From assembly GCF_000213785.1 (NCBI RefSeq), contig NC_015557.1:372001-436000 (forward strand): a stretch of DNA of 64,000 nucleotides. The letters are read 5' to 3'. The notes below the pieces were generated by a model, which saw only the letters and a list, made by a program, of their open reading frames with translations, made no database searches and was not told the DNA's origin. This stretch comes from Hydrogenobaculum sp. 3684 (lineage in GTDB: Bacteria > Aquificota > Aquificia > Aquificales > Aquificaceae). The translations under genes were made by a program, and so were the position numbers. This document shows, in pieces, positions 1,892-59,661 of the stretch (positions within the stretch are counted from its first letter, which is position 1; each line of letters begins with the position of its first letter).

Positions 1892-2628
1892 AAAAAAGAC
1901 TAGATCTATTGTTGGTGGAAAAGGGCTTGGTTTCTTCTCGTGAGAAAGCTCAAGCTTTTATAATGGAGGGAAGGGTTTTTGTAAATGGTAAAGCTGTTTT
2001 AAAAGCTGGTACCCTTGTGCAAGAAGAAGATGGTATTGAGCTTTTAGGAGAAGAAAAATTTGTATCAAGAGCAGGCTATAAGCTCGAAAATGCCATAAAA
2101 GAGTTTGATGTGGATGTGTCTGAGAAAATATGCCTTGATATAGGATCTTCTACGGGTGGGTTTACGGATTGTCTTCTTCAATACGGTGCAAAATTGGTTT
2201 ATGCTGTAGACGTAGGGCATCTTCAAATGCATGAAAAGCTAAGAAAAGATCCAAGGGTGATGTTGTTTGAAGATACAGACATAAGAGTTTTTAAAAAGCC
2301 AGATGATATCGATTTTGATATTGTTACTGTAGATGTGTCTTTTATCTCTCTTAAGAAGATAGGAGAGTATATTAAAAATCTTTGCTCTTATTATACAAAA
2401 CTTCTTATGCTTGTAAAACCTCAATTTGAGCTTTCTCCAAAGCATCTAAAAAAAGGAATAGTAAAAGATGATAGTGCTAAAATGCTTGCTCTTGAAAGTG
2501 TCATATCTCATTTTGAATCTATAGGTTTTGAGCTTTTAGCATATACAAAAGCAAGACCAAAAGGTACCAAAGGAAACGAAGAATTTTTTACTTATTTCAT
2601 ATTAAAGGATTATAATAAGACAAAATGA
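1888..2628 (+). CDS. tlyA: TlyA-family rRNA 2'-O-methyltransferase
   Basis: An N-terminal S4 RNA-binding domain (residues 1-60, with RLDLLLVEKGLVSSREKA) precedes an FtsJ/RrmJ-type methyltransferase whose SAM motif is LDIGSSTGGFTD near residues 87-98. Members methylate rRNA cytidine 2'-O positions; some are annotated as hemolysin A. The start is GTG, overlapping the pyrE stop (GTGA). The 246-residue length fits the family. The stop overlaps the ATG of the PBP1A gene. Confidence 0.9.
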   Translation: MKKRLDLLLVEKGLVSSREKAQAFIMEGRVFVNGKAVLKAGTLVQEEDGIELLGEEKFVSRAGYKLENAIKEFDVDVSEKICLDIGSSTGGFTDCLLQYGAKLVYAVDVGHLQMHEKLRKDPRVMLFEDTDIRVFKKPDDIDFDIVTVDVSFISLKKIGEYIKNLCSYYTKLLMLVKPQFELSPKHLKKGIVKDDSAKMLALESVISHFESIGFELLAYTKARPKGTKGNEEFFTYFILKDYNKTK

Positions 2629-5096
2629 AAAACATACTTTCTTTTTTAGGTTTTTTTATAGTTGTTGTATTTGTGCTTTTAGGAGTATATGTTTATAGCG
2701 TAAGTATTGGGCTTCCAGATGTTAGAGCTTTAGAGAATTGGCATCCGCCGGAAGCGTCAATGGTGTATGACTCAAACGGTAAACTTATAGGTACGATAGG
2801 AGCTCAGAATAGGATTTATGTAACAATAGACAAAATACCTAAAATAGTTCAAGATGCTTTTGTTTCTGCTGAAGATAAGACTTTTTATCACAACATAGGA
2901 ATAGACCCAACAAGTATAATAAGGGCTTTAATAGTAGATTTAGAAAAGGGAAAGGCTGTAGAAGGCGGAAGCACTATAACCCAGCAACTGGCGAAAAACC
3001 TTTTCCTTACCCCTAAGAAGACAATATCAAGGAAGATAAAAGAAGCAATCCTTGCTATAGAGATAACTCATACTTTTCCCAAAAGCAAAATACTTGAAAT
3101 GTATCTCAACCAGATATATTTGGGGCATGGTGCCTTTGGTGTAGAAGCTGCATCGGAAACTTACTTTGGAAAACACGTTTGGCAACTAAGCCTTGATGAA
3201 GCTGCTCTTTTGGCAGGGCTTCCTAGGGCTCCTACAAAGTATGATCCATATATAAATCCAAACTTGGCTCTTCAGAGAAGAAACTACGTTTTGTATAGAA
3301 TGTATAAAGATGGCTATATTACGAAAGAAGAGTACCTTAAAGCCTCTCAGAAACCTATTGTTTTAAACAAACATACAAACCCCATCACCAATAGCGATTA
3401 TTTCGTTAGTTTTTTAAAAGATTATATGTATAGAAATTTTCCCGATCTTATTTATCAAGGTGGATTAAAAATTTATACCACTTTAAATGAAACGCTTCAG
3501 CAAGCAGCGGAAAATGCTGTTAGAAACCAAATATTGTATATATCTAAACTAGAACATTATCCAGTTCTACCTTGGTCTATTACCGATACTATAGCAAAAT
3601 TTAAGGCTCAAAAAATAGATCTTAAGAAATCCAGGTATTATATAGGTTTTGTTAAAAGCATAAAAAATAATCAGGCAAATATAGATATAAACGGCACAGA
3701 GGTCACAGCTAAAATTTTCCCCGGTATAAACGCTGGCGAGTACGTAATGGTAGAACTTTCACGCACCACAAGTATGCCACGATCTACAAGTATGCCACGC
3801 CCCAATAACGGATTTAATGCAAAGATAATACCACAGCTTCAATCGGCTTTGGTTAGCATGAACGTGCACAACGGTGCTATATTGGCTTTGGTGGGTGGGT
3901 ACTCTTATCAGCTTTCTTCTTACAATAGAGCAGTTTATGCTTTAAGACAGACTGGTTCTGCTATAAAACCTATAGTTTATCTATCAGCCTTGATGAAAGG
4001 CTATACTCAGATAACCGAGATAGACGCTACGCCTCATGCTTATAAAGATCCGTCTGCCCCTGGTGGATTTTGGACACCTAGAAATTATGAGGGAGAGAGT
4101 TTTACTACAATTACCTTGAGAAGGGCTTTGGCTTACAGCGTTAATACTGCGAGTGTTAATCTTTTGGCCCAGGTGGGTTTTGATCTACCGATATCTTTAG
4201 CAGCAAAGGTGGGTATAAAACTTCCTCCTTATTATTCTATGGTGCTTGGTAGCACAAGCGTTACTCCGCTTCAACTTACAAACATGTATCAAGCTTTTGC
4301 CAACTTAGGAACTTATTGTGAACCGTATTTTATAACAAAGATAGTAAACTCTCAAAACCAAGTGGTATATATAGGTCATCCAGTTTGCTACAACGTATTT
4401 CCAGCTCCTTACGATAGGGTCTTGATATCTATGTTAGAATACGTGGTAAAAGTGGGGACTGGCTATGCTGCCCATGTGTTGGGACCTTATATAGCTGGTA
4501 AGACAGGTACTACAAACCATTACGACGATGCTTGGTTTGAAGGCTTTTCCTCTGATGTAGTAACTGGTGTTTGGACTGGGTTTGATATAAGAAAAAGAAT
4601 AGGTCACAATATGGCTGGTGCTGCAGCATCGCTTCCTACTTGGATAAACTATATGAAAGAAGCACTAAGCATATATCCGGAAAAGCCGTTTCCTTTACCA
4701 GATGGGGTAGAGTATGTGGAGATAGACCCAAAAACTCATTTAAGAGCTACTCCTTCTTGTCCCGGAGAGCCTATACTTTTTGTAAAAGGTACAGCACCAG
4801 AAACAACTTGTCAAAACGTTTCCTTGCCGGTTCTTCAAAGTTTAAACCCAAATCAACCTCAAAACCCAGGAAGTCCTTTGCAACCTTTAAACAACAATTC
4901 CTCACAATCACAATTCGCACAGCCCAATTCCCAACCATCTCAGGGCACTGCATCACCTGCTAAGCCTTCAACAAATCCTAGCTCAAAAAATCCAAACAGT
5001 ATATTACCTAAGATAATACAAGAAATAAACAAAGAGACTAATAAAATAGATAACGAAACAAAAAATATAGATAAGGAGTTAAACAATGCTCGCTAA
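2625..5096 (+). CDS. mrcA: Penicillin-binding protein 1A, bifunctional glycosyltransferase/transpeptidase
   Basis: This class A PBP polymerises and cross-links peptidoglycan at the outer face of the inner membrane. In order it has an N-terminal membrane anchor (about 5-27), a GT51 domain with catalytic E83 in EDKTFYHN, and a transpeptidase domain with SAIK (S445, K448), SVN (505-507) and KTG (626-628). Residues 382-393 read [12 protein letters not shown] and are encoded by two tandem copies of the 18-bp repeat, placed in the linker between the domains and exactly on codon boundaries. The last 110 residues are a Pro/Asn/Gln/Ser-rich tail ending in a charged helix. The gene overlaps tlyA and hisF. 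Confidence 0.93.
3768..3803 (+). repeat. 18-bp interspersed repeat, two tandem units inside PBP1A
   Basis: Unit 1 is ACAAGTATGCCACGATCT (3768-3785) and unit 2 is ACAAGTATGCCACGCCCC (3786-3803). Both are read in frame as TSMPR plus one residue. The preceding 18 bp end in a similar CACG block and may be a decayed third unit. Related units lie at 8619, 10356 and 58769. Confidence 0.85.
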
Positions 5097-8618: not shown

Positions 8619-8636
8619 ACAAGTATGCCACGGCCT
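8619..8636 (+). repeat. 18-bp interspersed repeat, single intergenic unit
   Basis: ACAAGTATGCCACGGCCT matches the PBP1A unit at 15 of 18 positions. It lies between rpsF and the 3' end of the AAA-ATPase-like gene, inside a 7-bp inverted repeat GAAATGC (8611-8617) / GCATTTC (8657-8663). Confidence 0.8.
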
Positions 8637-10355: not shown

Positions 10356-10391
10356 ACAAGTTTACCACGGTTTACAAGTCTACAACGGTTT
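10356..10391 (+). repeat. 18-bp interspersed repeat, two tandem intergenic units
   Basis: The units are ACAAGTTTACCACGGTTT (10356-10373) and ACAAGTCTACAACGGTTT (10374-10391), direct neighbours. They belong to the same family as the units at 3768, 8619 and 58769, and lie upstream of the AAA-ATPase-like gene, whose other side carries the 8619 unit. Confidence 0.8.
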
Positions 10392-58054: not shown

Positions 58055-58678
58055 TTAGAAATAATTTACAGTGTTAGAACCAGATACAAGTACTGGTTGA
58101 GATGTGCAAGAGATAACAGAAGAACCAGTAACACCAGATGCAGGAACTGTTGCACAATTTAATCCGTAAGCATTAGCTTGATTAAGTATAGATTGAACAT
58201 AAGCGTTGTCTATAGGAGCAGTTGTGAATGTGTAATAGCCTTGGGTTACAGAAACGTTAGAATTTGCACCGTTGTTGGCAGTAGCTGGTGTTCCAGCTCC
58301 AACTGGTCCAGTATACGCAGTGTAAGTCCATATGTTCGATGCGGTTGGTCCTATTTCCACAAAACTGCCAATATACTGCTCTAAAGCTGCACATGAAGCT
58401 ACGTTGTTGGTTGGTGCTGTACCTGTTGTCCAATCGTTTGGGCTTGCACATTTAACGTAAGGATACGCATTGTAAAAGTCATGTGCATAGTTCTTGAGTC
58501 CTGTGGCAAATAGCTTAAACCTGTTGGCTATCTGAGTTTCATTGCCGTTGGCTTTTAATGTCCTATAGCCTATAAAGGCAGCTCCTAAGAAAATTACGAA
58601 GGCCGTTAAAACCAAGAGAAACTCAATAATTGAGAAACCCTTATTAAACCACCTTTCTAGCCTTTGTCCATTTTTCAT
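58055..58678 (-). CDS. Type IV pilin-like protein
   Basis: The prepilin leader NKG is cut before F, giving FSIIEFLLVLTAFVIFLG with E5 of the mature protein and a hydrophobic helix as assembly domain. The remaining 170 residues are Ala/Thr/Gly/Asn-rich with two cysteine pairs (KCASPNDW...SCAALE and NCATVP...ISCTS), probably a disulfide-locked tip. It is a major or minor pilin of a type IV pilus. AGGAGG lies 8 nt before the ATG. No other pil genes are near. Confidence 0.85.
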   Translation of the reverse strand: MKNGQRLERWFNKGFSIIEFLLVLTAFVIFLGAAFIGYRTLKANGNETQIANRFKLFATGLKNYAHDFYNAYPYVKCASPNDWTTGTAPTNNVASCAALEQYIGSFVEIGPTASNIWTYTAYTGPVGAGTPATANNGANSNVSVTQGYYTFTTAPIDNAYVQSILNQANAYGLNCATVPASGVTGSSVISCTSQPVLVSGSNTVNYF

Positions 58679-58755
58679 AAACTTTTCCTCCTATAACTTA
58701 ATATCATAATAAATATAATATATCACGATAAATATAATACGTTTTGAGACATATG

Positions 58756-59661
58756 TCAATTTCTTTCCACGAGTCTACCACGATCAACAAGTCTGCCACG
58801 ATCAAGTAGCTCCTTCATCTTAATAGCGGTATCTCTTATCTCCCACTGAGCGCCTTTTTCTATCCTTTTACTTATAAAATCCATTAGATGGGGTATTGTG
58901 CCAGATACAACTATGTTTGTTTTTTGACCATGAGGTAAGATAAACCTTGCATCTTCTGCTGGTATTCCCATATTTACAAGGTCTATGTAAGCCTCTTCAG
59001 ATTGTTTTGTAGCTTTTAGAAAGATATCCAAAGCTTGCTGGTTATTCTTAATGGTAGGTGGGATTATCATCATATCTTGCCTTGGGACATCTTTCTTTTT
59101 TGGAAACTGCAACACATACCTTTGAGAACGCTGAGAGAAATTCAAAAAAGTGTGTCTTACTAGCTGATGAGTCATTACCCTTGATATATTCTCAAGATAA
59201 AATACCGCATATCCATAATATTCTCTTGATATATAAACAAGAGTTACATTGTCGTTCGAATCAACTATATTAGGAATCATAGAGTCTTTATTTAGTGTTA
59301 ATATTTCTTCGATAGCTTTATCTCTTTCTTCTTCTGTTAAATCTTCTAAATAGTGCCTTAAACTAAAACCTATTATATCTGGTGTTTCTTCGTTCCAGTA
59401 GGTTTTAAAATACTTTGCCGCCAGATAGATAGCCTTTTCTTTTTCTAACTTTTTATATGTAAAAGCATGAGAAAACACGGAGAAATGCTTGTAAGAGCAA
59501 AGTCTTAAAAGAAATTCTTTTGTTTCTTGTTTATTTGTTATTTTAGACTCTTGTAAAAGCTCTTCCAAAGTTTTCTTTGTATAGCAAACTCTAGCCCCAA
59601 GAGCACACAACCAAGCTATATTTGCAAAATCCTCTGGTGATGCTATATCTTTAATCCTCAT
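58756..59661 (-). CDS. thyX: FAD-dependent thymidylate synthase
   Basis: ThyX makes dTMP from dUMP with methylene-THF, NADPH and FAD. At 301 residues it is longer than most. The active-site segment is QLVRHTFLNFSQRSQRYVLQF, which departs from the RHRxxSxNExSxRY pattern but keeps the RH, the S and the RY. Residues 287-298 are DRGRLVDRGRLV, encoded by two tandem 18-bp repeat units just before the stop. TATAAT lies 7 nt before the ATG. Confidence 0.9.
   Translation of the reverse strand: MRIKDIASPEDFANIAWLCALGARVCYTKKTLEELLQESKITNKQETKEFLLRLCSYKHFSVFSHAFTYKKLEKEKAIYLAAKYFKTYWNEETPDIIGFSLRHYLEDLTEEERDKAIEEILTLNKDSMIPNIVDSNDNVTLVYISREYYGYAVFYLENISRVMTHQLVRHTFLNFSQRSQRYVLQFPKKKDVPRQDMMIIPPTIKNNQQALDIFLKATKQSEEAYIDLVNMGIPAEDARFILPHGQKTNIVVSGTIPHLMDFISKRIEKGAQWEIRDTAIKMKELLDRGRLVDRGRLVERN
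58769..58804 (+). repeat. 18-bp interspersed repeat, two tandem units inside thyX
   Basis: ACGAGTCTACCACGATCA (58769-58786) and ACAAGTCTGCCACGATCA (58787-58804) on the plus strand. The minus-strand gene reads them as DRGRLV twice. It is the same family as in PBP1A but on the opposite coding strand and in another frame. Confidence 0.85.

Follow-up and report, generated by a model that had tools for sequence, protein, structure and literature searches.

How did the ThyX protein encoded in this window (the whole stretch of DNA analysed, 64,000 nucleotides, from the genome called G000 here) come to carry twelve extra residues next to its C-terminus? The protein matches Pfam Thy1 (PF02511, E 8.9e-43), and the domain ends at residue 286. 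The C-terminus is ...KELLDRGRLVDRGRLVERN, in which the extra residues 287-298 are DRGRLVDRGRLV. As the first-pass annotation had proposed, these residues come from two tandem 18-bp units that lie on the opposite (+) strand. The interval it gave, 58768-58804, was the right place and was one base too wide at the 5' end. The features of the locus are as follows:

58756-59661, minus strand: thyX, the host gene, 301 aa, with a Pfam Thy1 match
58769-58804, plus strand: 36-bp insertion in thyX, two tandem units, each a 14-bp core plus the linker ATCA
58769-58786, plus strand: thyX unit 1, ACGAGTCTACCACGATCA, which is ACGAGTCTACCACG-ATCA, with one mismatch to the core
58787-58804, plus strand: thyX unit 2, ACAAGTCTGCCACGATCA, which is ACAAGTCTGCCACG-ATCA, with a perfect core

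The boundary of the insertion is ambiguous by one A, and 58770-58805 is equivalent. Compared to the 18-bp query, unit 1 has two mismatches and unit 2 has none, at a spacing of 18 bp. Three query-like sites were found in the window, compared to 0.03 in window shuffles. No inverted repeat was found at the insertion.

ThyX C-termini were compared among strains, and zero units were found in all four other Hydrogenobaculum genomes. The empty C-termini read KMKKLLERN in G003, KMKILIENP in G001 and KMKELLENH in G002, and the G004 fragment, read by eye from the DNA, is ...KMKILLENH followed by a stop. On the coding strand, CTACT[TGATCGTGGCAGACTTGTTGATCGTGGTAGACTCGT]GGAAAGAAATTGA in G000 stands against CTACTGGAGAGAAACTGA in G003, an exact in-frame gain of 36 bp with nothing lost. 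Since four of four other genus members are without the units, the insertion is a gain in the lineage of G000; polarity was checked against several outgroups at two loci, thyX and hisC. The insertion is placed after residue 286, outside the Pfam domain and three residues ahead of the old C-terminus. ThyA (PF00303) was absent from all five Hydrogenobaculum genomes and ThyX was the sole thymidylate synthase detected, so thyX is probably essential.

A tail of this kind could be a functional protein motif with a role in ThyX, or a regulatory binding site placed by selection. Unit numbers that depend on the strain, as seen in a penicillin-binding protein (PBP) and other proteins, are sometimes found in functional repeats. 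However, no DRGRLV tail was found in ThyX homologs that lack the repeat, either in the four other Hydrogenobaculum proteins or in more distant ThyX, and the units are read in six frames, in unrelated hosts, and are also present in intergenic repeats and remnants of transposases. A function placed by selection is therefore very improbable. Judging from sequence, DRGRLVDRGRLV appears to be a passenger from spreading DNA, outside the enzyme's design, and its insertion was probably neutral. Between thyX and the downstream gene there is a 19-bp A+T-rich direct repeat, ATATCATAATAAATATAAT (58701-58738), and the downstream gene itself (58055-58678) has a prepilin-like N-terminus by eye.

The annotation described the repeat as 18 bp long. 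The 18-bp period is real, but there is no fixed 18-mer: the family unit is a 14-bp core, ACAAGTMTRCCACG (ACAAGT-M-T-R-CCACG), plus a degenerate 4-nt linker. In 375 units, where orthologous arrays are counted more than once, 18-bp spacing was seen 175 times and 17-bp spacing 15 times, and 12 core positions (all but 7 and 9) were about 89-99% conserved. The linker is degenerate but non-random and resembles V-H-H-H: positions 2-4 almost never hold G (p ~3e-33), and T is rare at position 1. Neighbouring linkers were identical in 28 of 105 cases versus 4.5% by chance, and this excess shows that tandem duplication occurs. Linkage was found neither between core positions 7 and 9 (Fisher p 0.18) nor between core variant and linker (MI p 0.63). 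A hairpin or palindrome was considered for the 18-bp unit, which has no stable fold.

The repeat is dispersed and confined to the genus. The G000 genome (1,552,775 bp, one contig) contains 69 exact cores versus 0 for the reversed control pattern, and the four other Hydrogenobaculum genomes contain 90 (G003, 1,559,514 bp), 51, 28 and 23. G000 and G003 are finished, and in each the repeat is scattered at least about 50 times. Beyond the core counts, the analysis used stretches around the repeats, and in the drafts G001, G002 and G004 the arrays are only partly covered. No exact core was found in 36 relatives outside Hydrogenobaculum. The tandem pattern (two cores 3-5 nt apart) was searched in a contig collection of 84,980 species and matched only the MAGs KMB_Bin01 and ARK-05, both named Hydrogenobaculum, and UBA2488, which is labelled Aquificaceae bacterium and has contigs that match G002. 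It was present in no cyanobacterial contig of this collection. A phage or viral source was rejected because no IMG/VR viral contig has the tandem pattern. About twice as many exact cores are on the plus strand as on the minus strand (47/69 in G000, 62/90 in G003); in G000 the bias appears by eye on both chromosome halves, which speaks against a leading-strand effect. A literature search found no description of this repeat in Hydrogenobaculum.

Other units in the window show the repeat in a second reading frame and outside genes:

2625-5093, plus strand: class A PBP gene (Transgly and Transpeptidase, Pfam)
3768-3803, plus strand: two units in the PBP gene, linkers ATCT and CCCC, read TSMPRS, between the transglycosylase and transpeptidase domains
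8619-8636, plus strand: single unit inside a longer dispersed repeat, with no ORF of at least 60 aa over it
10356-10391, plus strand: two units, one mismatch each, with no ORF of at least 60 aa, adjoining the repeat end gtttatgtgttcacgatgtagt

As had been noted, one DNA thus yields two unrelated peptides, TSMPRS in the PBP and DRGRLV in ThyX, in opposite coding sense. This was offered as strong evidence that the repeat spreads at the DNA level. The conclusion is supported, though two genes alone are weaker evidence than was claimed. It now draws on six translations, clean empty and filled orthologous sites, the lack of a conserved ThyX tail and the copies outside genes.

The stretches analysed from G000 and G003 contain 118 arrays, of which 51 are inside ORFs of at least 240 aa. 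In phases 0/1/2 these number 11/15/7 on the same strand and 12/3/3 on the opposite strand, so insertion is independent of frame. ORF calls were mechanical except for Pfam-confirmed genes. The six translations in long ORFs are TSLPRF, YKSAT, QVCHG, DRGRLV, WQTC and VADL. Read in the opposite-2 frame, 53% of units would hold a stop, compared to 29% in the opposite-1 frame and 0.3-9% in the others. The scarcity of the opposite-1 and opposite-2 frames fits selection, because those frames often hold stops; VADL is rare, in a frame where linkers would create stops. Hosts named by Pfam include DnaA, with units between the ATPase and C-terminal domains, NrdA- and NrdD-type ribonucleotide reductases, the class A PBP, UDG, CheR, a prepilin peptidase, a Cas5-type protein, an asparagine synthase and an Eco57I-type methylase. 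A Toprim and topoisomerase protein resembles, by our reading, the C-terminal part of a reverse gyrase, and a class I aminotransferase is, by our reading, HisC. Most units fall outside or between Pfam domains, and those in the topoisomerase, the NrdA barrel, Asn_synthase and Eco57I fall inside. Some units lie outside genes, in intergenic repeats and transposase remnants.

Besides thyX, the screen, which covered sampled stretches around repeats, gave 13 empty and filled pairs with good flanks in which the gain is exactly 18 or 36 bp. At the cleanest of them, G000:1326181, the sequence reads ttccctct[ACAAGTATGCCACGCTAA]attattt, the flanks are 60/60 identical and no ORF of at least 60 aa lies over the site. 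Since no such ORF is present, the 18-bp step is not merely an effect of frame selection. G003:1516718 is a 36-bp gain, also with flanks 60/60 identical. Most clean pairs have no target-site duplication beyond one A. The target motif is weak: of 42 independent gene sites, 27 have an A directly 3' of the insert (p 3e-5), and of 51 arrays, 25 have a C at -2. A 4-nt target-site duplication was considered as the source of the linker and gave no general match; identity between the left flank and the last linker was only in weak excess, at 217 positions versus 188 (p 0.002), with four full matches versus 1.1.

At two sites at least, the inserts are not multiples of 18 bp: G003:666237 has 74 bp, and hisC of G003 holds a partial unit. 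At the hisC 3' end (L154 ~2690, G000:C1:1005190), two units at a 17-bp step extend HisC up to the start of the next gene, and the site in G003 has only ACAAGTCTACC. This 11-nt core stretch was considered as an ancestral seed, and the idea was rejected. G004 and G002 are without it, and the G003 copy therefore looks like a partly deleted unit.

Array length also differs between strains. The PBP gene has two units in G000 and seven at the same place in G003, and a CBS/GGDEF gene has four versus six. An ordinary minisatellite, in which chance seeds are amplified locally by slippage, would explain such differences, and the two versus seven identical PBP units do point to real slippage. However, the same 14-bp core sits at dozens of unrelated loci, many of them single-copy, with exact empty orthologous sites. 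The minisatellite reading is already refuted for dispersal and stands only for array growth.

We favour a non-autonomous, genus-specific micro-mobile repeat that is recognised by its core and then changes by slippage, with a probability of roughly 60%. Exact insertion, a fixed core and a free linker together suggest core recognition, and insertion would be carried out by an enzyme acting in trans. The 14-bp core would be recognised, and four degenerate nucleotides would complete the 18-bp cassette. One or a few units would be inserted precisely, the target being neither lost nor duplicated save for the usual junction A, with NC-N|A as the preferred context. Arrays would later expand and contract through slippage in 18-bp steps. 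An 18-bp step keeps the host gene in frame and the core has no stop in any frame, so copies would persist in genes wherever the added residues sit at a terminus, in a domain linker or in a loop that accepts them.

The enzymes usually suspected in such cases are missing. The Y1 transposase (PF01797) was absent from both finished genomes and found only in G002 of the five, and the reverse transcriptase RVT_1 was absent from all five. RAYT/IS200-type spread and reverse transcription were rejected on these grounds. This removes the usual suspects, supplies no replacement and counts against the favoured explanation. So do the weak target motif, the missing linkage and the sites that break the 18n pattern.

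The main rival, replication template switching, needs neither enzyme, nor any dedicated one. A nascent strand would leave its target at a microhomology, pair with a unit boundary in an array, copy 18n nucleotides and return; because copying would stop at the next identical boundary of a periodic donor array, the inserts would be exact multiples of 18. Consistent with this, the inserts are exactly 18n with 0-3 nt of junction ambiguity, target flanks resemble the unit boundary (NC-N|ANAAG), and one insertion, G003:1515449, is shifted in phase. The weak excess of identity between left flank and last linker points the same way, as do some 5-nt direct repeats, such as GCTTA at G000:129976. However, many clean events have just 0-1 nt of junction identity. 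Under plain copying, a freely varying linker should not go with 12 fixed core positions, and core variants should stay linked to their linkers; the restriction to this genus and this core is left unexplained. Template switching from arrays is a real possibility, but we favour the core-recognised element with slippage over it.

Linkage is missing both between core positions 7 and 9 and between core variants and linkers. If a fixed 18-mer were simply copied, this would be unexpected, except in an old family that has become saturated. It suggests either such a long-saturated pool or units that are regenerated with every insertion. Taken to its end, the latter would mean that each unit is made anew from a degenerate specification (a fixed core, with M, R and linker independently chosen) by an enzyme other than a reverse transcriptase or Y1, a new DNA insertion machinery confined to Hydrogenobaculum. 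We consider this unlikely.

Of the known systems, cyanobacterial small dispersed repeats (SDRs) such as SDR5 are described as about 20 bp, dispersed, tandem and presumed mobile (Elhai et al. 2008, as cited in PMC2884548), and SDR5 is reported to insert precisely at a fixed site, between nucleotides 3 and 4 of HIP1 (PMC4390886). By these descriptions, the Hydrogenobaculum unit is like SDRs in its size of about 20 bp, dispersal, varying tandem copy number and precise insertion, here shown by empty and filled orthologous sites. It differs in being often in protein genes and in its 14+4 design, and it may differ in its target, where a weak bias (A at +1, C at -2) was seen. SDRs, compared by description, belong to an unrelated host lineage, and no sequence relation to them was seen, since the tandem core pattern was found only in Hydrogenobaculum-type MAGs. 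Rickettsia palindromic elements (RPEs) are selfish elements, about 150 bp and palindromic, that lie in frame in unrelated protein genes (PMC10969869). The unit shares the in-frame insertion, but it is 18 bp, has no stable hairpin and is read in six frames. REP/REPIN elements with RAYT transposases are likewise short, dispersed and non-autonomous (PMC3116915), but the unit has no palindrome, is present in genes and has no Y1 (RAYT) enzyme in G000 or G003. Unlike MITEs, which have terminal inverted repeats and target-site duplications, the 18-bp unit shows no inverted repeat at thyX and, in most clean pairs, no duplication beyond one A; and the genomic reverse transcriptase expected of a retroelement-borne repeat was not found in the five genus genomes. 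VNTRs and minisatellites also vary in unit number between strains, here in 18-bp steps, but this unit is spread over dozens of unrelated loci, for which empty orthologous sites are seen. It is thus SDR-like in behaviour and RPE-like within genes, and falls outside the RPE, REPIN/RAYT and MITE definitions tested.

The family poses the question of how exactly 18 bp can be inserted without target duplication when no reverse transcriptase was found in five genomes and no Y1 enzyme in the two finished ones. To our knowledge, this unit is one of the smallest pieces of DNA that appear to be mobile. It enters essential proteins in any frame, including DnaA, ThyX, the reverse-gyrase-like topoisomerase, ribonucleotide reductases, the PBP and HisC. 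Each unit adds six residues, and with the empty orthologues serving as controls, the family could be used as a natural series to study how proteins tolerate new sequence. In annotation, DRGRLV, TSMPRS, YKSAT and WQTC tails in Hydrogenobaculum should not be taken for protein motifs.

A second dispersed family, about 78-81 bp and tandem in places, carries the motif AGCACACTAGAGCG, with 27 sites at up to two mismatches versus 2 for the reversed control. Its sites include G000:C1:212381-212551 and 269998-270169, and nrdA in L159:1293-4343. In nrdA it lies in frame, giving a RAMQSHFNSNEHSQPLNSSENG-like peptide, at positions that differ between G000 and G003. The 18-bp units are nested in some copies of this family. 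Transposase gene remnants (GYRTPAEV C-terminus, integrase-like by eye) carry several units at differing places, at L180:10754-11716 and in copies near G000:366176-366433 and 599512-599664, and thus provide paralogous filled and empty sites.
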